From the NCBI GenBank assembly GCA_030038015.1, contig JASHPR010000048.1, positions 1 through 43,938 on the forward strand: a DNA stretch of 43,938 bases, written 5' to 3'. Of the stretch, positions 7,584 to 43,621 are shown in pieces. Position 1 is the stretch's first letter. Each line of letters opens with the position of its first letter. The notes under the pieces are model-generated. The model searched no databases. It was not told the DNA's origin and worked only from the letters and a program-made list of their open reading frames with translations. The DNA comes from Streptosporangiaceae bacterium. GTDB lineage: Bacteria > Actinomycetota > Actinomycetes > Streptosporangiales > Streptosporangiaceae. A program made the position numbers and the translations under genes.

Positions 7584-7657
7584 TTCCGGCGGCTGGACTC
7601 GAACCAGCACAAACCCGACTCCAAAGGACGGTGGGCTGCCAATTACCCTACGCCGGA
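7584..7657 (-). tRNA. tRNA-Gln (anticodon UUG)
   Basis: The minus strand folds as a tRNA: acceptor stem TCCGGCG/CGCCGGA with discriminator A, D-arm GGGT..GCCC with an AATTGGCA loop, anticodon loop CTTTGGA (anticodon TTG, Gln), six-base variable region, and T-arm GCTGG-TTCGAGT-CCAGC. The 3' CCA is not encoded. The anticodon stem CCGTC/GTCGG has a U-U opposition at 30-40, the only unpaired position in the stems. Its position upstream of and divergent from glmU matches what I recall from other actinomycetes. Confidence 0.93.
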
Positions 7658-25961: not shown

Positions 25962-26388
25962 GTCAGTTCCTCCGCAGGAAACGCCCACCTGGCCAGGCGT
26001 CGTGCCAGGCCGCGGCCCGGCGCCGGCTGGGCCGTTGCTTCGGCGGCAGTTGCCGGAGCGGCAGGTTGCCGGGCGGACTGAATGCTGAGTTCATTACGGC
26101 CGCGGCGGGCATCAGCTCGTTCTTCCCTGCTCTTTTCCTCGTCAACTGCTCAACGCCCCGCGGAGATGGACGGCAATCAGCCCGCATGCCGTCCGCGGGC
26201 ATTGATGATCCGATTTCTTCCAGCAAGCTAGCCCGGTCACCGGTATCTGCGCACCCCCAATGTGGCGTAGCGTTCCTCGCCGGGTTGAGGGTGGTCGCTA
26301 AGTCCTCGCGAAAGCTAGCCTGAGTCGATTATTAATAGCAAAGCCCTGGTCACGCCGTTTAGTCGGCGGTCACAAGGATTTGGCCACA
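25962..26388. other. divergent intergenic region between GT4 and ATP-grasp operons
   Basis: This 427-nt stretch holds no convincing gene; the 85-residue track ORF at 26066 has no recognisable features. The right end is unusually AT-rich for this genome (GATTATTAATAGC, 26328-26340), as expected for a promoter. A small CGCCG-TTTAGT-CGGCG hairpin (26353-26368) lies just before AAGGATT, the likely ribosome binding site for the ATP-grasp gene. Confidence 0.5.
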
Positions 26389-27603
26389 ATGAAGATTGCC
26401 AGCGACCCGGTAAGCGAGCGGAAGGCCGCGCCCGGCACGGGGGTGCCGGGCGCGGTAGTCATAGGCGGGGACTATCAGGGGCTCGGTATTGCGCGGAGCC
26501 TGGGCCGGCACGGCATCCCGGTGTGCGTGATAGACGATGAGACGTCAATAGCCCGTGCCTCACGTTATGTGCGGAAGGTCGTCCGCGTCGGCGACCTGCG
26601 CAGCGAGGCGTCGGTGCTCGACGCGCTGGCCACGGCCCGCCGGAGGCTCGGGCTCTCCGGGTGGGTGCTCTTCCCGACCCGGGACGAGACCGTCGCGGCC
26701 ATATCCGCCAACCGGGACGCGCTGCGGGACGACTTCAGGGTTCCGACCCCGGATCTGGCCTCGGTGCGGCGCGCCTGGGACAAGCGGGAGACTTACCGGC
26801 TGGCGACCGAGTTGCGCATCCCGATCCCGCGGACGTGGTTTCCCCGCGCCGAGGCCGACCTGGCGACGATCGACACCGACGCCCCGGCCGTGGTCAAGCC
26901 CGCGATCAAAGAGCACTTCTTTTACGCCAGCCGGGCGAAGGCCTGGCGCGCGGACGGCAGCGCCGAGCTTCTCAGCTGCTTCCGCCGGGCCGCCGCCATC
27001 GTCGGCGAGGGCGAGGTCATCGTTCAGGAGATGATCCCGGGCGGCGGGGAGGAACAGTACGCGTACTGCGCGCTCTTCCGGAACGGCCGCGCCGTGGCGA
27101 GCATGACGGTGCGAAGACGCCGTCAGCACCCATCGGACTTCGGCCGGGCCAGCACGTACGTCGAGACGATCAGCCTGCCCGAGCTGGCGGAGCCGTCCGT
27201 GAGGTTCCTCCGCGCGATCGGCTATTACGGGCTCGTCGAGCTCGAGTACAAGCGGGATCCCCGCGACGGTGCCTTCAAGCTTCTCGACGTCAACGCCCGG
27301 ACCTGGGGGTATCACACGCTGGGGCCGCCGGCGGGGGTGGACTTCCCGTACCTGCTGTTCCGCGATCAGACCGGTGCCGGCGTGGACGAGGCGCATGCCA
27401 GGGCAGGGATCCGCTGGGTTCGGCTGGCCACCGACGTGCCCAACGCCCTGCGCGACATCCGGGCCGGGACGTTGCGCACCCGCGACTACCTGCGCTCGCT
27501 GCGCGGCATGCACACCGAGGCCGTGTTCTGCCTGCGTGACCCGCTGCCGGCGCTCTACGAGGTGGCGCTGCTCCCGTACCTCGCGGTCAAACGCGGGCTC
27601 TGA
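26389..27603 (+). CDS. ATP-grasp carboxylate-amine ligase-like protein
   Basis: ATG 26389 (AAGGATT upstream) gives 404 residues. The pre-ATP-grasp domain starts 'AVVIGGDYQGLGIARSLGRHGI'. The ATP-grasp fold follows, with 'APAVVKPAIKEHFFYASRAKAW' (ATP-binding Lys), 'VIVQEMIPGGGEEQYAYCALF' and 'YGLVELEYKRDPRDGAFKLLDVNARTWGYHT', where Glu and Asn are metal ligands. Such enzymes join a carboxylate to an amine using ATP. In a locus that also encodes a uronic-acid-type dehydrogenase, amidation of a uronic acid or of an amino acid substituent is plausible; this is inference. It is followed after 24 nt by the deacetylase-like gene, and the two likely work together. Confidence 0.87.
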   Translation: MKIASDPVSERKAAPGTGVPGAVVIGGDYQGLGIARSLGRHGIPVCVIDDETSIARASRYVRKVVRVGDLRSEASVLDALATARRRLGLSGWVLFPTRDETVAAISANRDALRDDFRVPTPDLASVRRAWDKRETYRLATELRIPIPRTWFPRAEADLATIDTDAPAVVKPAIKEHFFYASRAKAWRADGSAELLSCFRRAAAIVGEGEVIVQEMIPGGGEEQYAYCALFRNGRAVASMTVRRRRQHPSDFGRASTYVETISLPELAEPSVRFLRAIGYYGLVELEYKRDPRDGAFKLLDVNARTWGYHTLGPPAGVDFPYLLFRDQTGAGVDEAHARAGIRWVRLATDVPNALRDIRAGTLRTRDYLRSLRGMHTEAVFCLRDPLPALYEVALLPYLAVKRGL

Positions 27604-27627
27604 CCCATTGTCCGCCCGGAGGAACCG

Positions 27628-29097
27628 GTGTTCGAATCTTCCAGCCCGTTTGCCCTGTTCGATTACTTCCGCGTCCCCTACACGGTGCGGTCTGCCGAGC
27701 GCGAGAGCGGGCCGGCCGCGGTGCACTGGCTGCGCGCCATGGAGCAACCCGGCGCCGCGCGCCGCTCGCTGCTCTGGCTCGGCTCGGACGCGCAGCGTGA
27801 CGGCCGCGCCGCGGCCGCCCGGCTCGGCCGCTACCAGTTCGCGGGATGCACTTTCTTCGGGCATGTCGCACCGGATATCCCGCAGCAGGCGCGGGATATC
27901 GGCGACGGCTGGCGCGCCGCGGAGCCGATTACCGACGCCGACGGCCGCCCCGTCGCCGCGATCTGGCGAGACCGTGACGGCCGCATGTTCCTGCCCTTCG
28001 ACCCAGGTGAGGTGATGCTGCAGTTCTGGTCGGAGGGCTACCTGAACGTGAGGCGGTCATCCCTGGCCGCGGCCGGGCCGGCCCTGCGGCGCTGCTACTA
28101 CTTCGCGCGGCCCGCGATGCCGCGGGCGGTCCAGGTCAGGCTTCGCCGGGCCTTTACCCGCGTGCAGGCCCGCTCGTCGTTTCCCGGGTGGCCCATCGAA
28201 GACAGCCTCCACAACCTCTACCGCTGGCTGTTCGCGTCGGTCGCCGAGATCGCCGGCGGTCCGGTGCCGTTCCTTGAGCTGTGGCCCGAGGGGCGGTCGT
28301 GGGCCCTGGTCCTCACCCATGACGTGGAGACCGACGCGGGCTACCGGACCATGGGGCTGCTGCGCGACGCCGAGCGCGAACTTGGCTACCGGTCGTCGTG
28401 GAACTTCGTCGCGGAGCGGTACCGGGTGGAGGACGCCACCGTCCGGGCCCTTCAGGACGAGGGGTGCGAGGTCGGCGTGCACGGCCTGCGCCACGATGGC
28501 CGCGACCTGGCGTCGCGGCGCCTGATGGAGAAGCGGCTGCCGGCCATGCGGGCGAATGCCGAGCGGTGGAACGCCGTCGGCTTCCGCTCGCCGAGCACCC
28601 AGCGGGACTGGCAGCTGATGCCCCGGCTCGGTTTCGAATACGACTCGTCCTACACCGACACCGACCCATATGAGCCGCAGGCCGGGGGATGCTGCACCTA
28701 CCTGCCCTACTTCAACGGCAGCATGATCGAGCTGCCGATCACGCTGCCGCAGGACCATACCCTGTTCTGCATCCTGCCGGACTCCGGCGCGGATGTCTGG
28801 ATCCGCAAGGCCCGGTCCCTGCGCGAGCGCAACGGGATGGCGCTCGTCCTCACGCACCCGGACTACGCGCAGGAGCAGCGGGTGGCCGACGGCTACCGGG
28901 AACTGCTCGAGACCTTCCACGGCGATGACACCGTCTGGCACGCCCTGCCGAGGGAGGTGGCCCGCTGGTGGCGCCAGCGGGACGCCTCGGCACTGCGCCG
29001 GGACGGCGATGGGTGGCGCGTCGACGGCCCCGCGTCGGCCCGGGGACGCGTCGGATTCGCCGGCGCGGACGGGCTGCGCGAGGACAGCCTGACGTAA
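27628..29097 (+). CDS. polysaccharide deacetylase-family (NodB) protein with N-terminal extension
   Basis: GTG 27628 follows GGAGGAA and gives 489 residues. Residues 1-215 form an unrecognised domain ('FALFDYFRVPYTV', 'RRSLLWLG'). The C-terminal part is a NodB-type domain with motif 1 'LVLTHDVETDAGYR', motif 2 'VGVHGLRHDG' (His-x3-His intact) and 'VGFRSPSTQRDW'. No signal peptide or membrane segment is seen, so it would act on a cytoplasmic substrate such as a lipid-linked or nucleotide-linked sugar, unlike typical extracellular deacetylases. The pairing with the ATP-grasp gene suggests deacetylation followed by attachment of a new acyl or aminoacyl group. Confidence 0.85.
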   Translation: MFESSSPFALFDYFRVPYTVRSAERESGPAAVHWLRAMEQPGAARRSLLWLGSDAQRDGRAAAARLGRYQFAGCTFFGHVAPDIPQQARDIGDGWRAAEPITDADGRPVAAIWRDRDGRMFLPFDPGEVMLQFWSEGYLNVRRSSLAAAGPALRRCYYFARPAMPRAVQVRLRRAFTRVQARSSFPGWPIEDSLHNLYRWLFASVAEIAGGPVPFLELWPEGRSWALVLTHDVETDAGYRTMGLLRDAERELGYRSSWNFVAERYRVEDATVRALQDEGCEVGVHGLRHDGRDLASRRLMEKRLPAMRANAERWNAVGFRSPSTQRDWQLMPRLGFEYDSSYTDTDPYEPQAGGCCTYLPYFNGSMIELPITLPQDHTLFCILPDSGADVWIRKARSLRERNGMALVLTHPDYAQEQRVADGYRELLETFHGDDTVWHALPREVARWWRQRDASALRRDGDGWRVDGPASARGRVGFAGADGLREDSLT

Positions 29098-29126
29098 CCG
29101 CGAGCAGGCGGCGGGGTAACCCGGCG

Positions 29127-30599
29127 TTACCCGGGGTTCCTCGCCGACGCCGGGGCATCGCTGTTGTTGAGCTCGGTGGGCGCATGGCCAGCCCCAGCCG
29201 GCGCCGGTCGTGCCCGCAGGGCTGGCCGGCCCGGCTTCAGGCCGTTGTGCCGCTGCGCCCTGTTGTCCAGCAAGGCTGCCCCCCCGTCACCCATGACGGG
29301 CGGCCTTGCCCGGCCGATCGACAGAGCTCGGGGCACCCTGTTGAGTACGCCCACAATGGTGCCCTGGCTCATCGTCCTGATCTCCTGGGCGGCGGTGCGG
29401 ACCGACGTCCGCCGGGTACGGCGGACGTCGGCCACGACCACCACCACGTCGCTGATGCGCGCCACCGTCATCGCGTCGGAAACCGCCAGCACCGGCGCGC
29501 TGTCGACCACGATGGCATCGGCGACGCCTTTCATATCGGCGAACACCCGGGTCAGCTCTTGGACATCGAACAGCTCGGCCGGACAGCCCGTGCGACCGCC
29601 CACGGTCACCAGGCTCAGCCCGCGCACATCGGTGGGAAGCACCACCTCGTCCAGCGATGCCTCGTCCATGAGCAGGTCTGTCAGGCCGGGCGCGTCGCTG
29701 ACGCCGAACACATCGCCCAGCGACGGGTGCCGGAGGTCCGCATCGACCAGCAGCACCATCACCCCGGCCTGCGTCAGGGCCGTGGCCAGGTTGACCGCCA
29801 CGGATGTGCGGCCCTCGCGGGGCTGCGCACCGGCCACCAGCAGCACCGTCCCGGGGTCGCCCGCCGGGGTGAGCAGCGGGCCGAGCCGCGCCCTGAGATA
29901 GCGGTAGGCCTCCGCCGGGCGGGACGACGGGGCTTTCCTGAAGACGAACGCCGGGTTGGTGCGGTAACGCCACATGCGCGGGACCGCGGCCACGGCCGGC
30001 GCGCCCAGGCACTCCTCCAAATCGGCCCGGTCGCGCACCCGGCCGTCGAAAGCTTCGCGCACGAAGATCTCGCCCACGCCGAGCAGCAGTCCAAGAACCA
30101 CGCCCAGCGCAAGCAGGATCTTTTTGGACGTCCCGGCCGGCGCAGTCGGCAGATCAGCAGGCGTCACCAGCGTGGCCTGCAGCGGGTCTGCCGCACGTAC
30201 CGCCTTGGGGCTCGCGGCCAAATTGCGGAATGCGATGTAGGCCGCCGCAGCGGCGGAGGCGCATCGCTGAGCCGCCGGGGCCGTCGGCATTGAGCAGCTG
30301 ACCGACAGTATGTTGGAGGTGCTCGATACATCGGCACTCAGGTGCGGTGCCAGCAGGCCGGCGTTGACGTGCAGCGTGCGTGCGGCATGGTCCACGACCA
30401 CCCCAGATGTGGCAACAATCTTCTCCGTGGCCTGGTTCGGCACGACCAGCGTCGCGTTGGGCACGACGTGGGACTCAACGTCAACTTGAGCTGTGGAGGT
30501 GTAGTGGACAGGCTGCATCCTGGCGAACAGCCAAGCCGCCACCACGCCCGCCAGCGTCGCACATACCAGCCATAGCCCATGCTTTCGCAACACTGTCAT
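29127..30599 (-). CDS. Wzz/CpsD-type polysaccharide co-polymerase with BY-kinase domain (stand-alone copy)
   Basis: This 490-residue protein has two membrane helices (about 8-27 and 160-180) around an extracytoplasmic Wzz-like domain. A cytoplasmic bacterial tyrosine-kinase P-loop domain follows: 'GAQPREGRTSVAVNLA' (Walker A), 'VLLVDADLRHP' (Walker A') and 'AIVVDSAPVL' (Walker B). The Walker A lysine expected in Gly-Lys-Thr/Ser is Arg. The C-terminal tail (RHNGLKPGRP...) has no tyrosine cluster. In the first 100 residues it differs from the fusion protein at only 14 positions. It ends 'SDAPASARNPG', where the fusion continues into its flippase domain. It controls chain length and assembly. 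It is the last gene of the large operon. Confidence 0.9.
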   Translation of the reverse strand: MTVLRKHGLWLVCATLAGVVAAWLFARMQPVHYTSTAQVDVESHVVPNATLVVPNQATEKIVATSGVVVDHAARTLHVNAGLLAPHLSADVSSTSNILSVSCSMPTAPAAQRCASAAAAAYIAFRNLAASPKAVRAADPLQATLVTPADLPTAPAGTSKKILLALGVVLGLLLGVGEIFVREAFDGRVRDRADLEECLGAPAVAAVPRMWRYRTNPAFVFRKAPSSRPAEAYRYLRARLGPLLTPAGDPGTVLLVAGAQPREGRTSVAVNLATALTQAGVMVLLVDADLRHPSLGDVFGVSDAPGLTDLLMDEASLDEVVLPTDVRGLSLVTVGGRTGCPAELFDVQELTRVFADMKGVADAIVVDSAPVLAVSDAMTVARISDVVVVVADVRRTRRTSVRTAAQEIRTMSQGTIVGVLNRVPRALSIGRARPPVMGDGGAALLDNRAQRHNGLKPGRPALRARPAPAGAGHAPTELNNSDAPASARNPG

Positions 30600-30708: not shown

Positions 30709-32247
30709 TCACGCGAACACTCGCCGCGGTAGCCGTGTGATGGCCGATGCGGCGCTCGGCCGGCCGTCGGCGTCGGCTGGCTCACTTCGCCCGGGCAGGA
30801 CCCGGACCAGGGCCAGGAGCAGGAAGAACATGTCGCCGGAGCCGCGGTAGGTCAGGTGCGGGTCGAACACCATCATCACGACCTGCGAGCAGGTGCACGC
30901 GGCTAGCGCCGTGGCGATGACCCCGGCCGGGTCGGCGCGCTGCGCGTGCCTCCAGCACTTCTTGAGCACCGCCGCGACGAACGCGAAGTAGCTGACGAGC
31001 AGCGGGATCCCGCCGCCCCAGAGCAGCCAGGTGTATCCGCTCTCGATCCAGACGTAGCCGTACTGCCGGGTATCCGTGGCTATCCGGGCCGAGGGCCGCA
31101 CGCCCAGGATCCAGTTGTTATCTGAGAACAGGACCGGCCAGAAATACGTCCGAAGGTTGTAGAGCCGGTCTAGCCAGCTCACCGGAAGACCTGTCGCGGA
31201 ATTGAAGCCGCCCAGCCGGGTCTGAATGACTGGCCACAGCAGCACGCCGCCGACGAGCCCAACTGGAACGGCGTAGGCGGCGATCCGGGCCGCCTTCGTG
31301 AGCACCATCAGCGCCACGAGCGCCACGATCAGGCCGATCAGCGTGGAAAACTCTGCCGCGGCGATGACGGCCAGCGCGAACAGGGCCGCCAGGCCGCCGA
31401 GCCACAGGCGCCGCGGGTAGCCACGCACGAGCATCGCGATCGCAATCCCGAGGTTCAGGATCGCGAGGTCGGCGACGGCCGCGGGCAGGCCAAGCAGGGA
31501 ACTGCCGCGGCCGTCTGACAACGGCGCCGTGACGTCATTCGGCGCGTAGTACGTCGCGAGCAGCCTGGGTACCCCGAAAAGGTGCAATGACTGCAATATC
31601 CCGATAAAGCACACGAGCGCCGCCGCCACCATCGACAGCGTGAGACAGCGCAGGGCCTGCTCGCGCGTCTTGACGACCGACCGCACGATCACGTACTCCG
31701 CGAGCAGCTTCCACATCACGATGCAGTACAGGAGGTCGTCCTCGGTGATCGCCCGCTGCCGTACCTCCATCATCGCCAGGGGCAGCACCGAACTCGTGAT
31801 CCCCAGCGCGATGATGGTGACATCGACGCGATCGATCGGTGGCCACCGGAGCCCGCCGGTTCGCAGTTGCGCCAGCCAGCGCAGGCCGATGGCCCCCCCG
31901 AACAAGACGATCAGGGCCTCGTTCGGCCGCAGCACCGGGAGCACCGCGCCGGCGTTGATCCCGACGATCAGCGGCGTGAGGAGGATCAGGGAGTACGCCG
32001 CAATGACCGGCCTGACGATGACCAGCCCGATGACGGCGAGCGCGACGAGCGCGAGCACCGCGTACTTGACCTTGACGTTCAGCAGTGCCCCGAGCGCGAC
32101 CGGGCCGAGCAGCAGGGCGCCGTCCAGAAACCGCCGCCAGACGGCCGGCCCGGCGTCCTGGATGGCGTCGGCAAACGCCAGCTTGCGTGAGGCGAACCCG
32201 ACGCCGAACCGCCTCGGGCCGACGCCCGCCGCACCGCTTGCCGTCAC
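30709..32247 (-). CDS. Wzy/O-antigen ligase-like polysaccharide polymerase
   Basis: This 512-residue integral membrane protein starts at GTG 32247, overlapping the stop of the sugar transferase gene (GTGA). About ten hydrophobic segments are visible, with a larger extracytoplasmic loop around '[28 protein letters not shown]' and '[17 protein letters not shown]', typical of the Wzy_C/O-antigen-ligase family. It would join undecaprenyl-linked repeat units outside the membrane. Operon context with a priming transferase, Wzz-type kinase and flippase supports this. Confidence 0.87.
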
Positions 32248-32912
32248 CTCGCACCGCCTCCGAGAAGGGCCGGAATGGTGCGCAAAAGGATCACGGCATC
32301 AAGGAGGAAGCTGCGGCGGGCTACGTACTCCACATCGAGCCGGAGCGCATCCCGCATCGACAGCCTGCTGCGCCCGCTCACCTGCCACAGGCCCGTCATC
32401 CCGGGTTTTACGTCAAAACGGCGCTGGTACGCCTCGCCGAACATGTCGGCTTCCCACGACAGCACCGGGCGCGGCCCGACGAGGGACATCTCGCCCTTGA
32501 GCACGTTGAGCAGCTGCGGGAGCTCGTCCAGGCTGCTGCGGCGCAGCCACGCGCCGACCGGCGTAACGCGCGGATCGGCGTCTAGCTTGAAGAGCCCTCC
32601 GGCGTCGGCCGTGGCGGCCGCGCCGGAGGAGAGCAGGCCCGTCACGTAGTCGCGGTGTATCCGGTCGTCGTTGTCGATGCGCATCGTCCGCAGTTTCAGC
32701 AGCGTGAAGGGGTGCCTGTTCCGGCCCAGCCGCTCCTGGCGGAACAGCGCCGGCCCGCGGGATGTCGAACGCACAAGCAACCACAACAGCAGCAACAACG
32801 GCGTCAAGATGATGATCGCTATCAGCGAGAGCACAATGTCGGTGGCCCGCTTTGCCGTTTCGCGTCCCGGCACGAGCGCGGCGCCGCGTTTTTTTTCCGC
32901 AACGTCAGTCAT
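32244..32912 (-). CDS. undecaprenyl-phosphate sugar-1-phosphate transferase (WbaP/ExoY-like)
   Basis: ATG 32912 gives 222 residues; the longer track ORF reads through the aminotransferase gene. One membrane helix '[22 protein letters not shown]' precedes the catalytic domain: '[22 protein letters not shown]', '[26 protein letters not shown]' (Asp-Glu and Pro-Arg-Pro motifs) and '[14 protein letters not shown]'. It starts the repeat unit by loading a hexose or HexNAc phosphate on the lipid carrier. It overlaps its neighbours on both sides by 4 nt, so this is a tightly coupled operon. Confidence 0.95.
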
Positions 32913-34090
32913 GGCCTGATTCCCCCTCGCCCTCGCAGCGCGGTTGCCAGCGCTTCGCACACGAGATCGACCTGACCGTCGGTCTGATGAGGGAATATGG
33001 GCAGCGACAGCAGCTCGCCCGCCGCCCGCTCGGCCACCGGCAGCGAGCGGTTCGCGAACCGCCGCAGCGGCGGCTGCAGGTGACACGGGAGCGGATAGTG
33101 CACCCCGGTCTCGATGCCGCGCCGCCCCAGTTCCTCGCGGACGCCGCCGCGGTCGGCGACCCGCACCACGAACAGGTGGTAGACGTGGCGCGCGGACGGT
33201 GCGACTCCGGTCAACTTCACGCCCGTGCCGCCGAGCTGAGCGCGGTACCGGTCGGCCACCGCGATCCGCCGCTGCGTCCACGCGTCGATCCGGGCCAGCT
33301 TGCCGGAGAGCGCGATCGCTTGCAGCGTATCCAGGCGGCTGTTCGTGCCGAGGCAGTCGTGCTCGTAGTGCGCCGTGCCCCGGGACCGGCCGTGGTTGGC
33401 CAGCACCCGCACGCGATCGGCTAGGTCTGGCCGTGAGGTGACCACGGCGCCTGCGTCGCCGAACGCACCCATGTTCTTCCCCGGGTAGAAGCTGAAGCAG
33501 GCGGCCTCGCCGAACGATCCCGCCCGCCTGCCGTCCCATTCCGCGCCGTGGGCCTGCGCCGCGTCCTCGATCAGCGCGATGCCCGCCTCATCGGCCACGG
33601 CCAGCAGGGCGGTCATGTCCGGCACCTGCCCGAACAGGTGCACGACCATCACCGCGCGCGTGCGGGGCGTGATGGCCTCGGTCAGTGTCTGCGGCGTGAT
33701 CAGCAGCGTGTCGTCGCTGACGTCGGCGAAGCGGGGGACGGCCCCGGCGCGCACCACCGCGGCCGCGGTGGCGATGAACGTGTTGGCCGGGACGATGACC
33801 TCGTCGCCCGGGCCGATCCCCAGCGCCATGAGCGTGAGCTCCAGCGCGTCCGTCCCGTTCGCGACCCCGACGGCGAAGTCCGCGCCGCAGTAGGCGGCCC
33901 AGTCCCGCTCGAACGCCGCGACCGCCAGCCCGCCGATGTACCGGCCGCCGAGCAGGCTGGCCAGGTAGTCCTGCTCGATCGAGGCCCAGACCTCGCTCGC
34001 CATCGGGGCGAGGTCGGTAAACGGGACGCGGGTCATCCCGCCCGCCGGGGTTCGGGGCGCGCGCTCTGGCTTGATGCCGGTGTCAGCCAA
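32909..34090 (-). CDS. DegT/DnrJ/EryC1/StrS-family sugar aminotransferase
   Basis: This PLP enzyme has 393 residues from TTG 34090; ATG 34036 ('MTRVPFTDLAPM') is a credible shorter start. Motifs: 'VGVANGTDALELTLMALGIGPGDEVIVPANTF', 'LIEDAAQAHGAEW' (PLP-ring Asp) and 'FSFYPGKNMGAFGDAGAVV' (Schiff-base Lys). It aminates a 3- or 4-keto nucleotide sugar. The neighbouring Gfo/Idh/MocA dehydrogenase and the WbpD-like acetyltransferase at 16776 suggest the WbpB/E/D chemistry, that is, a 3-amino sugar. Confidence 0.94.
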   Translation of the reverse strand: MADTGIKPERAPRTPAGGMTRVPFTDLAPMASEVWASIEQDYLASLLGGRYIGGLAVAAFERDWAAYCGADFAVGVANGTDALELTLMALGIGPGDEVIVPANTFIATAAAVVRAGAVPRFADVSDDTLLITPQTLTEAITPRTRAVMVVHLFGQVPDMTALLAVADEAGIALIEDAAQAHGAEWDGRRAGSFGEAACFSFYPGKNMGAFGDAGAVVTSRPDLADRVRVLANHGRSRGTAHYEHDCLGTNSRLDTLQAIALSGKLARIDAWTQRRIAVADRYRAQLGGTGVKLTGVAPSARHVYHLFVVRVADRGGVREELGRRGIETGVHYPLPCHLQPPLRRFANRSLPVAERAAGELLSLPIFPHQTDGQVDLVCEALATALRGRGGIRP

Positions 34091-35174
34091 CGGACGTCCC
34101 CGCTGAAGCCACGTCCAGCCGGGGCCGGGCGTCAGCGGGCCGCCGCGTCACCTCGGCCAGCGCTACCGGGCGCTGTTCCTGCAACGAGAGCTGAGCGCAT
34201 TCCAGGACCTGGACCACGGCCAGCCCGCTGCCCCCGTCCACGGAAGGATGCGACCCGCTGACGATGCAGTCGATGAAATGCTGATCCTGGACCGCGAGCG
34301 GCTCGGCGAAGGCGACGAATGGTGACACGGTGTCGCCCAGGTGGTACGCGATCTGAGATACCGGCCCGTCTCCCTCATCCGGGGGCACGGCCGACTTGTC
34401 ATAAACGCGGATCCGCTCGCCGTCGACCATGTCGTCGTAGACGACCATCTTTTTCGATCCGACCGCCGTGATCCGTCTGACCTTCTGCGGGTTGAGCCAG
34501 CTGACCTGGATATTGGCCCGCACGCCGACGTCGGCATAGTCGAGCCGCAGGTAGGCGACGTCCTCGTGCTCGAGATGGACGTGCCGTGAGGCCCAGGCCG
34601 TGACGGTCGTCGGCCGTGAGCCGAGCACGAAGTTCGAGATCGAGATGTCGTGCGGCGCCAGGTCGAGAATGACATTCACATCCGCCTGGTAGAGCCCCAG
34701 ATTCAGGCGCGCGCAATCCAGGTAGAACAGCCGTCCGAGCTCCCCGGAGCGCACCAGGTCGCGCAGCTTGTGCACCGCGGCGTTGTGCTCGAAGGTGTGG
34801 CCCGGCATCAGCACGACGTCGGCGTTCTCGGCCGCCTCGACCAGGGACCGCGCGGCGCGTGTCGTGGTGGCCAGCGGCTTCTCTATCAGCGCGTGCTTCC
34901 CGGCGGCGATTGCTTTCAGGCCCAGTGGCGCGTGGCTGGCCGGCGGGGTGGCAATGATGACCGCGTCAATATGCGGCAGCGCGTCCTCGAGATCGGCGTA
35001 TGAGGGGATGCCCAGCTCGACCTGACGCTGTGCGCCATTAAGGCTGGCGAATTGCGGATCCACTCCGACAATCGATGCCACCCCGGTCGTGGACCGCAGC
35101 ACGCGCACATGCCGGGACCCCCAGTAGCCGACGCCCACGACGCCGACGCGGACTCCCTCCGGTTGCTCCCGCAT
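34083..35174 (-). CDS. Gfo/Idh/MocA-family sugar dehydrogenase (WlbA/WbpB-like)
   Basis: This 363-residue NAD-dependent oxidoreductase starts at ATG 35174 after AAAGGGGG. The N-terminal 'VGVVGVGYWGSRHVRVL' binds NAD, and 'ALIEKPLATTTRAA' contains the family Glu-Lys-Pro. 'LDLAPHDISISNF' gives the conserved Asp/His catalytic region, a spelling shared with UDP-GlcNAcA 3-dehydrogenases. It likely oxidises C3 of a nucleotide sugar to the ketone used by the adjacent aminotransferase, with which it overlaps by 8 nt. Confidence 0.92.
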   Translation of the reverse strand: MREQPEGVRVGVVGVGYWGSRHVRVLRSTTGVASIVGVDPQFASLNGAQRQVELGIPSYADLEDALPHIDAVIIATPPASHAPLGLKAIAAGKHALIEKPLATTTRAARSLVEAAENADVVLMPGHTFEHNAAVHKLRDLVRSGELGRLFYLDCARLNLGLYQADVNVILDLAPHDISISNFVLGSRPTTVTAWASRHVHLEHEDVAYLRLDYADVGVRANIQVSWLNPQKVRRITAVGSKKMVVYDDMVDGERIRVYDKSAVPPDEGDGPVSQIAYHLGDTVSPFVAFAEPLAVQDQHFIDCIVSGSHPSVDGGSGLAVVQVLECAQLSLQEQRPVALAEVTRRPADARPRLDVASAGTSVG

Positions 35175-35463: not shown

Positions 35464-38400
35464 CTAGCCATCGGCCATCTCGGCGACCCGGCTGCGGGCC
35501 TTGTTGCGCACGTGACCCAGGCCCCCGGCGAGCCAGCCCAGCTCCGGCGTCCGCCACGCGGCCTGGACGGCGATATATATCGCGCTTCCGACCAGGGCGG
35601 CGGCAACGATTCCGAGGCGCGCGCCGATGGGCCGCGCCAGCCAGTGCTGGATGGTCGTCGCGGTGAGCCAGGCCGGCCCGGCCATGATCGCGGCGCCGGC
35701 CAGGAACTTGCCCAGCGACGGCGCGAGGCGCTCGGTGCCGCTGCGGCTGATCTTCCGCCACAGCCGGGTGGTCAGGTGGCAGGCCGCCACGGTCACCGCC
35801 ACCGAGAAGGCCAGGCCGAGCGCGAGGATGACATGGAGGCCGTGGACCAGCAGGGCGGCGCTGGCCAGGCCCAGGCAGATGACGGCCTGCAGCAGCATCG
35901 ACACCAGCGGTGAGCGCGTGTTCTTCCTCGCGTAGAACGCGTAGGTGGCGATCATGAAGGCAGTCTGACTGATCACGGCCAGCGACAGCGCGGCCAGCGA
36001 CAGCGCGACCATGGTGACGCCCGACGCGGTGTTCATCCGCCCGAAGGAGATGGCCCGGGCCAGCGGCACGGCCAGGACCAGGTAGGCGACGGCGGCCGGG
36101 ATGGCCACGAAGAGCCCCAGGGCGAAACCGCGCACGAGGGTGTCGCGGAACCCGGTCGTGTCCCCGTCCAGGTGCATCCTGGCCAGCCGGGGCAGCAGCG
36201 ACAGGGCCACCGGCGTGGCGCCCACCGCGATCGCGAGGTAGTAGAAGTTCAGCGCGATCTGGAAGCCGACCACCCCGCCGGGCAGGCGGTTTGCCACGGT
36301 CAGCAGGGTGAGCACCTGCAGGGCGAGCAGCCCGGCCTGGGCCAGCGAGGGCAGGGCCCGCCGGACGACCACCCGGACCTCGGGGTCGCGCCAGCCCAGG
36401 CGCGGGATGAGGACCGAGCCCGCCCGCTTGGCCCCGTACCACTGGGTCGCGGCGTGCAGCACGACCGCGCCGGTGGAGCCGAGCCCGAGCAGCAGCATCT
36501 CGCCCGTTGGCACCTGGTTCAGGTTCGTGTCCGTCCCGTAGAGCACGGCGGTGGCGAGCAGGACGGCGATCGTGCCGAGGTTCTCGATGGAGGGAGCGCC
36601 CGCGGCCAGGGCGAAGCGCTGGCGCGAGTTCATGACCGCGGTGGCGGTCCCGACGACGCCATAGCAGAAGATCTGCGGGATGAACATGAGGATCAGCAGC
36701 CGGCCGATGCGGACCTCGGCCGCGCCCGCCAGGTGGGTCCCGCCGCCCATGGCCGCGAACCCCAGCACGAGAGGGCCGAGGACGAGCGCCACGGGCGCGA
36801 CCGCCACCAGCGAGACCAGGGTCATCCCGAGAAAGCCGCCGGCCACGCGTTCCGAGGCGCGGCGGTCCCCGGCGTCGATGTGGCGCACGAGCGCGGGCAC
36901 CAGCAGCGAGGAGAACAGCGAGCCGGCCAGGAACCCGTAGTAGATCAGGTTCGGCAGGGAGTTCGTGAGCTGGTAGGTGTTGCCGAAGAAGGTCGGGCCC
37001 AGGACCGCCCCGATGCAGGCGAACCTGATCAGGCCGGTGACCCGGCTCACGATGGTCCAGGCGGCCACCGTGAGCGAGTCGCCCGCGGCCGCGGTGGCCG
37101 ATGCCGGGGCGTCGCTGCCGCCCCGGTGGGCAGGGGCGTGGCTGGCGGTGTCGGCGGGGCGGGGTGGCCTGGCCAGGTCGGGGCGGCCGGGCTTGAGCCC
37201 GTTGTGGCGGTGCGGCCCGGCGGCCTCGAGCAGGGCGGGCGGGCTGGCCGGGAGGCGGGCCCGGCCGATCGACAGCGGCCGGGGGGCGCAGTTGACGATG
37301 CCGACGAGGGTGGCGGGGCTGATGGTTTTGATTTCCTGGGCGGCGGCGCGGACCGATGTCCGCCGGGTGCGGCGCAGGTCGGCCACCATGACCACGACGT
37401 CGGCGACCCGGGCCAGCGTCATCGCGTCGGAGACAGCCAGCACCGGGGCGCTGTCGACCACGATCGCGTCAGCGGCGCCCCTCATCTCGGCGAAGACCCG
37501 GGCCAGCTTGGTGACCTCGAGCAACTCGGCCGGCCGGGCCGCCAGCCCGCCGACGGTGACCAGGCTCAGCCCGGGCAGGCCGGTGGGCACCACCGCCTGG
37601 TCCAGCGATGCCTGCCCGGTGAGCAGGTCGGTTAGCCCAGGGGCCTGGCCGGCGCCGAAGACCTCGCCCAGTGACGGGTGCCGCAGGTCGGCGTCGACCA
37701 GCAGCACCCTGGTCCCGGCCTGGGTCAGGGCCGTGGCCAGGTTGACCGCCACGCTGGTGCGGCCCTCCCGGGGCTGCGCGCCGGCCACCAGCAGCACGGT
37801 GGCGGGGTGGCCGGCGGGGGTGAGCATCGGGCCCAGGCGCGCCCGCAGGTACCGGTAGGCCTCGGCCGGGCGGGAGAACGGGGCGTTGCTGAACACGAAC
37901 GCCGGGTTGGTCCGGTAGCGCCACATCCGCGGCACCGCGGCCACCGCCGGGGCGCCCAGGCACTCCTGCAGGTCGTCCCGGCCGCGGACCCGGCCGTCGA
38001 TGGCGTCGTGGACGAAGATCTCGCCTGTGCCGAGCAGCAACCCCAGGGCCGCGCCCAGCGCATAGAGGATCTTCTTCGACGTCCCGGCCGACGCCAGCGG
38101 CAGGTCGGCAGCGGTCACCAGCGTGGCCTGCAGCGGGTCGGCCGCGCGGATCGCCTTGGGGCTCGAGGCCAGGTTGCGGAATGCGATGTAGGCCGCCGCG
38201 GCGGCGGCGGCGCACTGCTGGGCCGCCGCCGCCGTCGGCATGGAGCAGCTGATCGACAAGATGTTCGAGGTGCTCGACACCCCTGCGCTCAGGTGCGGCG
38301 CCAGCAGGCCGGCGTTGACGCCCAGCGCCCGGGCGGCACTGACCACCACCACTCCGGACGTGGCCACGATCTTCTCCGTGGCCTGGTTCGGCACCACCAG

Positions 38401-38550
38401 CGTCGCGCCCGGCACCACGTGCGACTCAACATCCACCTGAGCCGTCGAGGTGTAGTGGACAGGCTCGCTCCTGACAAACAGCCAGACCGCCACCACGCCC
38501 GCCAGCGTGGTGGCCACCAGCCACAGGCCATGCTTCCGCAATGCTGTCAT
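35464..38550 (-). CDS. fusion of Wzz/BY-kinase co-polymerase with MurJ/MviN-type flippase
   Basis: A single 1028-residue frame. Residues 1-190 are a Wzz-like unit with helices at about 8-27 and 160-180. Residues 195-430 are the BY-kinase domain: 'GAQPREGRTS' at 257-266 (Walker A with Arg for Lys), 'VLLVDADLRHP' at 282-292 and 'AIVVDSAPV' at 362-370. Residues 430-488 are a Pro/His-rich linker. Residues 489-1028 are a 14-helix MOP-superfamily flippase beginning 'TVAAWTIVSRVTGLIRFACI', with 'QLTNSLPNLIYYGFLAGSLFSSLLVPALV', as in MurJ/MviN. No stop, strong internal ribosome site or frame change is seen at the joint. It would couple lipid-linked repeat export to chain-length control. It is the first gene of the large operon, divergent from two response regulators. 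Confidence 0.92.
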   Translation of the reverse strand: MTALRKHGLWLVATTLAGVVAVWLFVRSEPVHYTSTAQVDVESHVVPGATLVVPNQATEKIVATSGVVVVSAARALGVNAGLLAPHLSAGVSSTSNILSISCSMPTAAAAQQCAAAAAAAYIAFRNLASSPKAIRAADPLQATLVTAADLPLASAGTSKKILYALGAALGLLLGTGEIFVHDAIDGRVRGRDDLQECLGAPAVAAVPRMWRYRTNPAFVFSNAPFSRPAEAYRYLRARLGPMLTPAGHPATVLLVAGAQPREGRTSVAVNLATALTQAGTRVLLVDADLRHPSLGEVFGAGQAPGLTDLLTGQASLDQAVVPTGLPGLSLVTVGGLAARPAELLEVTKLARVFAEMRGAADAIVVDSAPVLAVSDAMTLARVADVVVMVADLRRTRRTSVRAAAQEIKTISPATLVGIVNCAPRPLSIGRARLPASPPALLEAAGPHRHNGLKPGRPDLARPPRPADTASHAPAHRGGSDAPASATAAAGDSLTVAAWTIVSRVTGLIRFACIGAVLGPTFFGNTYQLTNSLPNLIYYGFLAGSLFSSLLVPALVRHIDAGDRRASERVAGGFLGMTLVSLVAVAPVALVLGPLVLGFAAMGGGTHLAGAAEVRIGRLLILMFIPQIFCYGVVGTATAVMNSRQRFALAAGAPSIENLGTIAVLLATAVLYGTDTNLNQVPTGEMLLLGLGSTGAVVLHAATQWYGAKRAGSVLIPRLGWRDPEVRVVVRRALPSLAQAGLLALQVLTLLTVANRLPGGVVGFQIALNFYYLAIAVGATPVALSLLPRLARMHLDGDTTGFRDTLVRGFALGLFVAIPAAVAYLVLAVPLARAISFGRMNTASGVTMVALSLAALSLAVISQTAFMIATYAFYARKNTRSPLVSMLLQAVICLGLASAALLVHGLHVILALGLAFSVAVTVAACHLTTRLWRKISRSGTERLAPSLGKFLAGAAIMAGPAWLTATTIQHWLARPIGARLGIVAAALVGSAIYIAVQAAWRTPELGWLAGGLGHVRNKARSRVAEMADG
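37096..38550 (-). repeat. paralogous 1.46-kb segment shared with the stand-alone Wzz-kinase gene
   Basis: The first 485 codons of the fusion gene are homologous to nearly all of the gene at 29127-30599, in the same orientation. The shared stretch ends at codons for SDAPASA; after that one copy reaches a stop within four codons and the other enters the flippase. The repeats flank the flippase part, sugar dehydrogenase, aminotransferase, priming transferase and polymerase genes, so recombination between them could delete or rearrange about 8 kb. Confidence 0.85.
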
Positions 38551-39033: not shown

Positions 39034-39690
39034 GTGCGGCTGGTACTTTGTGATGAAAACCGAATTTTGTGCGAAGCGCTCGGCGCTGCCATGGAGGGGC
39101 GCGGGCATCAGGTAGTCGCGATCACAACCACCGCCGCCGGCGGCGTCGCCGCTGTGCGGGCATTACGGCCCGACGTCATCCTGCTGGATCTTCGCTTTCC
39201 CGATGAGGCGGCAGCTGGGGGCGCGGCGGGCATCGACGCCGCCCGGAAGATCCGCCGCGACTGCCCAGACACGGCGGTGATGGTGCTGTCCAGCCTGGCC
39301 GACCCCGCGGCGTGGTCGGCGGTCCTCGAGATCGGCGTGGCGGGCCTCATGCTCAAGGACCAGTGCGTGAACGCGATCGCCGGCGCCCTCGACGTCATCG
39401 CGGCAGGCGGGGTCGTGTTCGACCAGAAGCTGTCCAGCCAGGCAAGCCAGCGTGCCTCCCGGCGGCGGCGCAACGGCACGCCCTACGTGCTCACCCCGCG
39501 GGAGAAGGAGGTACTGCGCAGGATCGTGGCTGGCCAGAGCACGGGACAGATGGCCCGAGAGATGAACATCGCCACCAGCACCCTGCGCACCTACGTGAAG
39601 AACGTGCTCTCGAAGATCGGCGCGCACACCCGTCTGCAGGCTGCCGCTCTCGCGACCCAGGGAGAACTGCAGGATGAACTCACCGCGTAA
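39034..39690 (+). CDS. NarL/FixJ-type response regulator (first of an orphan pair)
   Basis: This 218-residue protein starts at GTG 39034. The receiver domain (1-125) has the acidic start 'VLCDENRILCEAL', the phosphoacceptor Asp in 'DVILLDLRFPDE' and the switch Lys in 'GLMLKDQ'. The LuxR HTH (about 148-210) reads 'LTPREKEVLRRIVAGQSTGQ' and 'EMNIATSTLRTYVKNVLSKIGAHTRLQ'. No histidine kinase is encoded in the window. Its position, divergent from the polysaccharide operon, suggests it controls that operon. Confidence 0.93.
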   Translation: MRLVLCDENRILCEALGAAMEGRGHQVVAITTTAAGGVAAVRALRPDVILLDLRFPDEAAAGGAAGIDAARKIRRDCPDTAVMVLSSLADPAAWSAVLEIGVAGLMLKDQCVNAIAGALDVIAAGGVVFDQKLSSQASQRASRRRRNGTPYVLTPREKEVLRRIVAGQSTGQMAREMNIATSTLRTYVKNVLSKIGAHTRLQAAALATQGELQDELTA

Positions 39691-39796: not shown

Positions 39797-40468
39797 ATGG
39801 GTATCAGTGTCTTTGTCATAGACGCGGAGCGCACCTTTGCCGACGCCCTCTCGGCCAGGCTGGAGGCCGAGGAAGACATAGACGTTGTCATGCCACTCCA
39901 TCCCACCGCACCTGCGCCGTCGCTGATTATCGGCAGGCACGCGGATGTAGTGCTGTTGGACGCTGACCTGCCCGACAGCGCTGCGATCAACCTGTGTGAG
40001 GAGCTGTCCGGCCGGTCTGAGGCCCCGCGGGTGGTGATGATGAGCTGCGGCTCGCACCCGGATCGCATCGCGGATGCCGTCCGCGTGGGCGCTGCGGGCT
40101 GGGTGCGCAAGGACGAGTCGCTTCATGACCTGCTGCGCGTCGTGCGGGGGGTGGTGGCGGGGGAAACGTGGCTGCCGCGGGCCCAGATGGGCGCGGTGCT
40201 GCGGCTGCTGCTCGAGGAGCGCCAGCAGCGGCATGAAAGCGACCGGCTGCTCGCCGCGCTGACGCCGCGCGAGCGGGAGATATTGTCGTGCCTGGCCGAC
40301 GGCGCGGGGCGGCGCGATGTGGCCGAGCGGCTCCATCTGTCGGCGAACACGGTCCGAACCCACCTGCAGAATCTCATGGCCAAGCTTGGCGTCCATTCCA
40401 CGCTTGAGGCGGTGGCGGTGACCCGCTCCCTGCTGAGCGTGTCCTCGACCGGCGAGGGTTCGTGCTAA
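39797..40468 (+). CDS. NarL/FixJ-type response regulator (second of an orphan pair)
   Basis: This 223-residue protein starts at ATG 39797, 106 nt after the first regulator. The receiver domain has 'VFVIDAERTFADAL', Asp in 'DVVLLDADLPDSAA' and Lys in 'GWVRKDES'. The LuxR HTH reads 'LTPREREILSCLADGAGRRD' and 'ERLHLSANTVRTHLQNLMAKLGVHS'. It is clearly different from the first, so the pair is not a recent duplication. The two may heterodimerise or act in series. It ends in a strong hairpin that marks the right edge of the island. Confidence 0.93.
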   Translation: MGISVFVIDAERTFADALSARLEAEEDIDVVMPLHPTAPAPSLIIGRHADVVLLDADLPDSAAINLCEELSGRSEAPRVVMMSCGSHPDRIADAVRVGAAGWVRKDESLHDLLRVVRGVVAGETWLPRAQMGAVLRLLLEERQQRHESDRLLAALTPREREILSCLADGAGRRDVAERLHLSANTVRTHLQNLMAKLGVHSTLEAVAVTRSLLSVSSTGEGSC

Positions 40469-41384: not shown

Positions 41385-42308
41385 ATGGCCACGCCACCGC
41401 GTTCCGACTACCAGCTCTCCCATCTCGACATGCTCGAGGCCGAGTCCATCCACATCATCCGCGAGGTGGCCGCCGAGTTCGAGCGCCCGGTGCTGCTGTT
41501 CTCCGGCGGCAAGGACTCGATCGTGATGATGGCCGTGGCCGAGCGCGCGTTCCGGCCCGCGCGGCTGCCGTTCCCGGTGATGCACGTGGATACCGGCCAC
41601 AACTTCGCCGAGGTGCTCGAGTTCCGGGACCGGCGGGTGGAGCAGGCGGGCGCCCGGCTGATCGTCGCTTCGGTGCAGGACTCGATCGACTCGGGCCGGG
41701 TCGCCGAGGAGACGGGACGCTGGGCGAGCCGTAACCGGCTGCAGACCGTCACCCTGCTGGACGCGATCGAGGAGCACCGCTTCGACGCGGTGTTCGGCGG
41801 CGCCCGCCGCGACGAAGAGAAGGCCAGGGCCAAGGAGCGGATGTTCTCCTTCCGTGACGAGTTCGGCCAGTGGGATCCGAAGAACCAGCGACCCGAGCTG
41901 TGGAACCTCTACAACACCAAGCTGCGGCGCGGCGAGCACATCCGGGTGTTCCCGCTGTCCAACTGGACCGAGCTCGACGTGTGGCACTACATCCGGCGGG
42001 AGGAGCTCGAGATCCCGTCCATCTACTTCGCGCACCGGCGCCATGTCTTCGAGCGCGAGGGCATCCTGCTCGCCGGCAGCCCGTACCTGATCAGGGGAGA
42101 GGACGAGCCGCTCTTCGAGGCGACCGTCCGCTATCGCACGGTCGGGGACATGACGTGCACCGGGGCCGTCGAGTCGGCAGCGGCGACGATCGCCGACGTG
42201 ATCTCGGAGATCGCGGCGACGCGGATCACCGAGCGGGGCCAGACGCGCGCCGACGACCGCACCAGCGAGGCAGCGATGGAAGACCGCAAGCGAGAGGGCT
42301 ACTTCTGA
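41385..42308 (+). CDS. cysD: sulfate adenylyltransferase subunit 2
   Basis: This 307-residue PP-loop ATPase forms APS from ATP and sulfate with CysN. 'VLLFSGGKDSIVMM' is the PP-loop, 'MHVDTGHNF' follows, and 'FGGARRDEEKARAKERMFS' and 'ELDVWHYI' are conserved CysD blocks. ATG 41385 lies after GGAG. The stop and the cysN start share one base (TGATG), so translation is coupled. Confidence 0.97.
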   Translation: MATPPRSDYQLSHLDMLEAESIHIIREVAAEFERPVLLFSGGKDSIVMMAVAERAFRPARLPFPVMHVDTGHNFAEVLEFRDRRVEQAGARLIVASVQDSIDSGRVAEETGRWASRNRLQTVTLLDAIEEHRFDAVFGGARRDEEKARAKERMFSFRDEFGQWDPKNQRPELWNLYNTKLRRGEHIRVFPLSNWTELDVWHYIRREELEIPSIYFAHRRHVFEREGILLAGSPYLIRGEDEPLFEATVRYRTVGDMTCTGAVESAAATIADVISEIAATRITERGQTRADDRTSEAAMEDRKREGYF

Positions 42309-43621
42309 TGACGCACGCTCAGGCTGACCCCGGCGCCAGCCAGCCCCCGGACCGGCACGTGGACATGCTCCGGCTGGCGACCGCGGGCTCGGTCGACGAC
42401 GGCAAGAGCACCCTCATCGGGCGGCTGCTCTTCGACTCCAAGGCGATCTTCGAGGACCAGCTCGCCGCGGTGGAGCGCACCAGCAGGGAGCGCGGCGAGG
42501 AGTACACAAACCTGGCCCTGCTGACCGACGGGCTGCGCGCCGAGCGCGAGCAGGGCATCACCATCGACGTGGCCTACCGCTACTTCGCCACGCCGCGGCG
42601 GAAGTTCATCATCGCCGACACGCCCGGTCACATCCAGTACACGAGGAACATGGTCACCGGGGCGTCAACCGCCGACCTGGCGATCGTCCTGGTCGACGCC
42701 CGCAACGGGCTGACCGAGCAGAGCAGGCGGCACGCGTTCCTCGCCACGCTGCTGCGGGTGCCGCACCTGGTGCTCGCGGTGAACAAGATGGACCTCGTCA
42801 ACTACGACGCCGCGGTGTTCGAGCAGATCACCGAGGAGTTCACCTCGTTCGCCGCCAAGCTGGAGATCGGCGACCTGACCTTCATCCCCATCTCGGCGCT
42901 GCACGGGGACAACGTGGTGCAGCGCTCGGCCAGCATGCCGTGGTACGACGGCCCGTCGCTGCTGCACCACCTGGAGCACGTGCACATCGCGTCCGACCGG
43001 AACCTCATCGACGTGCGGTTCCCCGTGCAGTTCGTGATCAGGCCGCACCAGGCCACGCATCCTGAGCTGCACGACTACCGTGGCTACGCCGGCCAGGTGG
43101 CGGGGGGCGTGCTCAAGCCCGGCGACGAGGTCATGCACCTCCCGTCCGGCCTGACCACGACCATCAAGCGCATCGACACGGCGCGCGGCCCGGTGGCGGA
43201 GGCCTTCCCGCCCATGTCGGTGACCCTCCTGCTCGACGGCGACCTGGACATCTCGCGGGGGGACATGCTCTGCCGGCCGCACAACCAGCCGCCAGCGGCC
43301 CAGGATGTCGAGGCACTGGTCTGCTGGATGACCGACGCCAGGACGCTGACCCCGCGCAGCAGGCTGGTCGTGAAGCACACCACGCGGACCGTGAAGGCGT
43401 TCGTCCGCGACCTGCATTACCGCCTCGACGTGAACACCCTGCACCGGGACGAGTCAGCCACCCAGTTCGGCCTCAACGAGATCGGGCGGGTGACGCTGCG
43501 GCTGACGCAGCCGGTGTTCTGCGACCCGTACAACCGCAACCGGCTCACCGGCGGCCTGATCCTGATCGACGAGGCGACCAACGGCACCGTCGGCGCGGCC
43601 GTGGTCACCGACGCCCATTAG
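42308..43621 (+). CDS. cysN: sulfate adenylyltransferase subunit 1 (GTPase)
   Basis: ATG 42308 gives 437 residues; the 583-residue track ORF begins inside cysD in another frame. The EF-Tu-like GTPase motifs are 'GSVDDGKSTLIGRLLFDSK' (G1), 'EREQGITIDVAYRYF' (G2), 'IADTPGH' (G3) and 'NKMDLV' (G4). Beta-barrel domains 2 and 3 follow. The length fits CysN alone, without a fused CysC APS kinase. It drives APS synthesis by GTP hydrolysis. Confidence 0.97.
   Translation: MTHAQADPGASQPPDRHVDMLRLATAGSVDDGKSTLIGRLLFDSKAIFEDQLAAVERTSRERGEEYTNLALLTDGLRAEREQGITIDVAYRYFATPRRKFIIADTPGHIQYTRNMVTGASTADLAIVLVDARNGLTEQSRRHAFLATLLRVPHLVLAVNKMDLVNYDAAVFEQITEEFTSFAAKLEIGDLTFIPISALHGDNVVQRSASMPWYDGPSLLHHLEHVHIASDRNLIDVRFPVQFVIRPHQATHPELHDYRGYAGQVAGGVLKPGDEVMHLPSGLTTTIKRIDTARGPVAEAFPPMSVTLLLDGDLDISRGDMLCRPHNQPPAAQDVEALVCWMTDARTLTPRSRLVVKHTTRTVKAFVRDLHYRLDVNTLHRDESATQFGLNEIGRVTLRLTQPVFCDPYNRNRLTGGLILIDEATNGTVGAAVVTDAH

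Follow-up and report, generated by a model that had tools for sequence, protein, structure and literature searches.

A MurJ-type flippase joined to one of two co-polymerase copies in a polysaccharide cluster of a Streptosporangiaceae bacterium

The stretch of DNA analysed here (the window; 43,938 nucleotides, a single contig of the draft genome of a soil Streptosporangiaceae bacterium) carries two forms of one co-polymerase, a stand-alone protein of 490 aa and a fusion of 1028 aa that continues into a MurJ-type flippase. We think it probable that the stand-alone form is the ancestral co-polymerase, that the fusion is a copy which received a foreign flippase, that the resident MurJ was lost, and that both forms would build a mixed ring, probably with the putative polymerase Wzy. 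The parts and the pathway are known and the wiring is unusual; the fusion is a rare natural tether in a machine of debated assembly.

Gene order in the window

On the minus strand the cluster reads, in order, the fusion (35464..38550), a Gfo/Idh/MocA-type sugar oxidoreductase (34083..35174), a DegT/DnrJ-type sugar aminotransferase (32909..34090), the polyprenyl-phosphate sugar transferase BacT (32244..33539 as called), a putative polymerase Wzy (30709..32247; a multi-helix membrane protein of 512 aa) that starts on the BacT stop, and the short gene, a stand-alone co-polymerase with a BY-kinase-like domain (29127..30599). Relatives match just the C-terminal ~240 aa of BacT, the true start of which probably lies near 32960. 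A convergent ORF ends at 29097, 29 bp past the stop of the short gene. By content this is a Wzx/Wzy-type polysaccharide cluster, and it is called an operon from strand and order alone. The earlier note had placed both co-polymerase forms in one operon; strand and order agree with this, but the gaps between the fusion and Gfo (289 bp) and between Wzy and the short gene (109 bp) are large enough for promoters. No promoter-like sites that could split the operon were detected, terminator-like sites numbered 4 against 2.4 expected by chance, and the sole match in an RNA family scan of the locus was a tRNA at 7584-7657.

Comparison of the two co-polymerase copies

The short protein and residues 1-487 of the fusion share 79% amino acid identity. 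As had been stated from a first inspection, one copy stops after RNPG (C-terminus SDAPASARNPG followed by the stop codon) and the other runs on, reading ...SDAPASATAAAGDSLTVAAW... into the MurJ domain; both ORFs were confirmed. The SDAPASA motif occupies residues 480-486 in both copies (29142..29162 in the short gene, where these are the last shared residues; 37093..37113 in the fusion, where they mark the join), and the tails can be aligned up to Ala486. The claim that the copies match through the linker to this motif thus holds as far as alignability and overall identity are concerned, but the linker itself is shared loosely (~55-78% amino acid identity, with small gaps). Nucleotide alignment, which had been proposed as a check, gave identities of 0.76-0.87 per 40-codon block over codons 1-400 and of 0.60-0.74 in the last three blocks, tail included. 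The score of the tail was reached by 0 of 5000 shuffles, and that of the part beyond HNGLKPGRP by 1 of 5000, indicating that the similarity of the tails is not due to chance. Given that the tails align to this point and that MurJ homology (AAAGDS...) starts within ~3 codons of it, the join was placed, to within a few codons, where the co-polymerase naturally ends. MurJs other than that of the fusion carry unrelated N-terminal tails ahead of the AAAGDS start.

Residues 201-280, which comprise the E..R..R helix and the P-loop region, are 90-93% identical between the copies, and identity drops to 0.60 in residues 321-360. The dN/dS ratio was 0.27 (NG86) or 0.07 (YN00), with a dS of ~0.5-1.6; values this far below 1 point to purifying selection, and both copies look maintained. 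Recent duplication or gene conversion was considered and rejected, as dS is high and identity varies rather little along the domain.

In codon composition the two halves of the fusion (co-polymerase residues 1-486, 37093..38550, GC3 0.944; flippase, 35464..37092, GC3 0.965) resemble each other and differ from the short gene (0.839), the flanking LuxR-type genes (0.83-0.84) and Gfo (0.846); DegT and a sulfate gene in the window also reach 0.92-0.94. The shared high GC3 hints that the fusion arrived as one piece, in which case the 79% identity may reflect two lineages rather than a duplication inside this genome. The order of events may accordingly have been duplication followed by joining, or import of a ready-made fusion. 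An assembly or binning artefact, in which the contig would join two strains and the fusion and the short gene would sit in different cells, is very improbable in our judgement. The assembly (6.69 Mb, 786 contigs, 91% complete) is a draft with 6.9% contamination, the GC3 of the fusion departs from that of its neighbours, and a divergence like that of the copies may occur between genes of different species; on the other hand, composition does not break at the in-frame join, GC3 is equal in the flanks to either side, and the downstream cluster really lacks a MurJ and needs one.

A co-polymerase with a probable pseudokinase domain

The structural model (pLDDT 84.9) consists of two folded modules, the co-polymerase (residues 1-422) and the flippase (~485-1027), connected by a disordered linker (residues 427-479, pLDDT below 50). 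The co-polymerase is predicted to have membrane helices at residues 2-28 and 159-184, a short outside domain with strands between them, and a cytoplasmic BY-kinase fold. Its best Foldseek match was Wzc K540M (E 5.7e-17), and CapA1B1 was matched with a TMt of 0.92; Wzz and GNVR matches stayed below the Pfam cut-offs. The architecture of two membrane helices, outside Wzz domain and cytoplasmic BY-kinase fold is therefore that of the PCP-2 co-polymerases Wzc and CapAB, from which the window copies differ in having neither the Walker A lysine nor the tyrosine tail, the position of the latter being taken in the fusion by the flippase.

The linker is also where a proteolytic cut would have to fall if the flippase were simply co-translated with a co-polymerase copy and then cut loose, the join having no structural role. 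We regard this as improbable: the linker is predicted to be disordered and is poorly conserved, as such a step would allow, but reading it revealed no evidence of a cleavage site, and relatives have no such step in the same operons, where MurJ is free or fused to Wzy.

The designation of the domain as a kinase, made in the earlier note, is borne out for the fold but not for the catalytic and phosphorylated residues. In both window copies Walker A reads EGRTS, with Arg in place of Lys; Walker A' is retained there, as is most of Walker B. The Walker A lysine was absent from 15 of 16 co-polymerase rows and present in all five ordinary BY-kinases of the comparison genomes; locus L052 keeps the Lys and has lost the Gly, and L053, L054 and L061 have lost parts of Walker A' as well. 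The C-terminal tyrosine cluster was found in 0 of 16 co-polymerase rows as against 5 of 5 ordinary BY-kinases. Judged by these motifs, the whole actinobacterial co-polymerase family is devoid of the Walker A lysine (15/16) and of the tyrosine cluster (16/16), and its BY-kinase-like domain is probably a pseudokinase. The E..R..R oligomerisation motif is kept in 12 of the 16 rows, both window copies included. In the two Winogradskya loci (L059 and L060) the kinase-like domain of the co-polymerase contains an insertion of ~90-110 residues in its middle.

Wzc altered at the Walker-box lysine K540 is no longer phosphorylated and forms a homogeneous octamer (PMC8285477). By analogy, the natural Arg of the window copies suggests a ring that is not controlled by phosphorylation. 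The tyrosine tail of Wzc is itself described as stabilising the octamer (PMC8285477, PMC11986026), so that with the tail absent an octamer would not be assured here. BY pseudokinases that act as scaffolds have already been described, namely EcpK of Myxococcus xanthus and HfsB of Caulobacter (PMC12004946). Like the present domain, these have a BY-kinase fold without catalytic residues or Tyr tail, belong to Wzx/Wzy pathways and are proposed scaffolds. They are, however, presented in that source as separate proteins that bind a PCP, whereas here the pseudokinase-like domain and the PCP form one chain, which in one of the window copies carries the flippase too.

The flippase half and the putative polymerase

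The flippase half matched PF03023 (E 1.1e-39) and the fold of E. coli MurJ (TMt 0.81; mostly 0.78-0.82, with three entries at 0.65 to 0.74), and scored 155.5 with TIGR01695, under the cut-off of 235.55. In an alignment to E. coli MurJ, where R18, R24, D39, R53 and R270 presumably form the lipid II charge cluster, the two N-terminal arginines are kept and the positions of D39 and R52/R53 are occupied by N and Y. Family and fold are hence those of the lipid II flippase MurJ (MOP superfamily), but the flippase of the fusion sits in a sugar-polymer operon. The kinase domain and the N-terminus of MurJ are both cytoplasmic, which makes the topology of the fusion compatible. The flippase half is the sole MurJ of its type found in the genome, other MurJ matches having ~27-29% identity.

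The window Wzy had no Pfam or NCBIfam match and is ~60% conserved across genera. With its low-confidence model (pLDDT 52.6), the best VIA row was WaaL (Z 8.0), followed by FtsW and RodA, and Foldseek gave no match at E <0.001. Assigned as Wzy by position and a weak fold match, the protein probably belongs to an undescribed polymerase family that resembles WaaL, FtsW and RodA at low confidence.

Related loci and the ancestral arrangement

Sixteen related loci were compared, five from the same family (G011, G013, G014, G063, G182) and eleven others. The latter were found by scanning 84,980 species genomes with a MurJ alignment, which returned 15 loci including G011, G013, G014 and G182; they stem mostly from isolates of Micromonosporaceae, and the rest from MAGs labelled Chloroflexi and Acidimicrobiaceae. 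A genome scan with the whole fusion as query found nothing. Within the family, 279 genomes were searched for the MurJ part (6 matches including the window) and 150 for the kinase part (4 matches including the window). At class level, the kinase frames of the other matches (7 of 148 genomes besides the window's own) were at most 625 aa long. In two MAGs labelled Chloroflexi (L052 and L064) the presence of this otherwise actinobacterial cluster may be due to transfer, mis-binning or a mislabel.

At each of the 14 loci that show the co-polymerase, it is a separate gene downstream of Wzy whose frame contains no MurJ or Wzy match; the contig of G014 ends inside Wzy and that of L064 inside MurJ, which hides the co-polymerase. 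MurJ directly follows BacT in all 15 relatives that cover BacT. It is fused to Wzy in a single frame at 11 of 15 loci (L036, L037, L049, L050, L051, L055, L057, L059, L060, L063, L065) and separate from, yet adjacent to, Wzy at the other four (L052, L053, L054, L061); because one of the three sequences used to train the Wzy profile was out of frame, a few spurious short Wzy matches arose in L062 and L036. In the window alone BacT leads directly into Wzy, with a 4-bp overlap, so that the resident MurJ is missing at exactly its usual place.

These loci bear on the proposal that the shorter gene arose by truncation of a copy of the fusion, one of two origins suggested in the earlier note. The linker shared to SDAPASA would fit such an origin, but the co-polymerase stands alone in 14 of 14 relatives and the short gene occupies the ancestral place downstream of Wzy. 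A search for a flippase remnant after 29127 had been suggested there; no MurJ similarity was found at E 0.01 in 26000-29130, before Wzy or between the genes, and 145 of 500 shuffles scored as high as the DNA past the stop of the short gene when compared with the MurJ part of the fusion. With the convergent ORF ending so close to that stop and purifying selection on the copies, we consider truncation hardly credible. A remnant of a MurJ-Wzy linker on the window Wzy, as would be left by a former fusion, was also looked for and not accepted: its N-terminus was matched or exceeded by 39 of 2000 shuffles against the linker of G011, by 307 against G182, 436 against G063 and 1716 against G013, a weak signal in one relative alone.

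Origin of the flippase half

In the kinase tree, made like the others from true-frame sequences, the window copies are sisters (100/100) inside a six-row clade of the same family (100/100), and not members of separate ancient clades, the outcome that had been named as speaking against a common origin. The window Wzy likewise groups with Wzys of the same family (100/99). The window MurJ, in contrast, groups with G014, L052, L053 and L054 (100/99), in a tree that leaves out the outgroup and two partial rows (L049, L064); when these were included its neighbours lacked a starred branch, and it still fell outside the starred same-family clade. Forcing the window MurJ to the same-family MurJs of G011, G013 and G182 was rejected (AU p 9.4e-19), as was forcing the window Wzy to the L052/L053/G014 group (8e-66). 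Plain identities agree: Gfo, DegT, the transferase and Wzy are 60-72% identical to the G011/G182 type and less so to G014, whereas the window MurJ is 69% identical to G014 and 50% to G011 (69-71% to the G014/L052 type, ~50% to the G011 type); five rows whose coordinates were out of frame did not serve as queries in this comparison. Trees and identities together indicate that the flippase half has its origin in a different lineage of such clusters.

Sister copies and stand-alone relatives support the second origin suggested in the earlier note, the joining of a kinase copy to murJ, with the amendment that the MurJ-type partner belongs to another lineage and is not the resident flippase of such clusters. 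On these comparisons the plain form is the older, the short gene being an ordinary ancestral co-polymerase, and the fusion is derived, a co-polymerase copy plus a foreign MurJ-type flippase, as judged from the stand-alone form in relatives, the missing resident MurJ and the lineage of the flippase.

Proposed working arrangement

In the system of enterobacterial common antigen (ECA; PMC10030265), about eight WzzE surround one WzyE, with Wzy in the lumen of the ring; a Wzx-Wzy-Wzz super-complex has been proposed from genetics, and a single complex is there still a proposal. The cluster in the window resembles this WzyE-WzzE system in its pathway logic of a co-polymerase ring with one polymerase and a flippase proposed to join; it differs in that the parts are separate there, while a covalent link joins the flippase to the co-polymerase here and to the polymerase in relatives.

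In the arrangement that we favour, the disordered tail with which a diverged copy of the short form naturally ends would have become the link to the N-terminus of a foreign MurJ-type flippase, and the resident MurJ, normally between the sugar transferase and Wzy, would have been lost. Plain and flippase-bearing subunits may then assemble in one ring, probably with Wzy, and the plain form would allow ring closure with a 14-helix flippase on some subunits rather than all. The tether would keep the flippase beside the polymerase, so that a flipped lipid-linked unit could be handed straight over, and phosphorylation would play no regulatory part. Co-assembly, stoichiometry and substrate handover are what we infer from the comparisons above. 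A mixed oligomer is plausible and would fit the published stoichiometry of related systems; likeliest by this analogy would be a ring of mostly plain subunits with few that bear a flippase. An all-fusion ring would carry eight flippases, making the retained short gene a simple way to dilute them, and such dilution would account for the retention of both forms and for the unchanged place of the short gene downstream of Wzy.

Alternatively, the two forms may be subfunctionalised copies that do not mix. In that case the short form and Wzy would make up the ring that sets chain length, and the fusion would serve in a flippase-linked assembly of its own or for another polymer. The divergence of the copies (79% amino acid identity, dS, the stretch at 321-360) is compatible with this, as are the separate upstream region and different GC3 of the fusion. 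We hold it to be rather unlikely: the fusion is the only MurJ of its type in the cluster and the resident MurJ after BacT is gone, which leads us to expect a single pathway for fusion, Wzy and short form, and residues 201-280 are 90-93% identical between the copies.

Our preferred reading of a mixed ring can be extended, tentatively and with some doubt, to a covalently tethered Wzx-Wzy-Wzz machine rewired by evolution, in which the plain co-polymerase sets a low flippase number per ring and the co-polymerases of the family have given up tyrosine phosphorylation. If true, the cluster would be natural genetic evidence for flippase, polymerase and co-polymerase as one complex. Two distinct natural fusions pair the flippase with the polymerase (11 of 15 loci) and with the co-polymerase (the window); as the flippase is thus fused to each of the other two parts, the question of a single complex becomes testable with single polypeptides, and the paired plain and flippase-bearing co-polymerases offer a ready system for asking how many flippases a ring tolerates. 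Among the open-access papers searched, no title or abstract opening disclosed fusions among MurJ, Wzx, Wzy and Wzz.

Genes flanking the cluster

Two LuxR-type response regulators (39034-39690 and 39797-40468) are divergent from the fusion, the second with 55% identity to one that directly adjoins Gfo in G014. On the other side, the 489-aa ORF at 27628-29097 (plus strand), which has no Pfam match, is 66% identical to an ORF adjoining the same cluster in G013 and is also found nearby in L053 and L054. Beyond the LuxR-type genes, 41385-43621 holds genes for a PAPS reductase/CysD-like protein and an EF-Tu-like, CysN-like GTPase, which overlap as called; sulfate activation adjoining a polysaccharide cluster is a possible reading of this pair.
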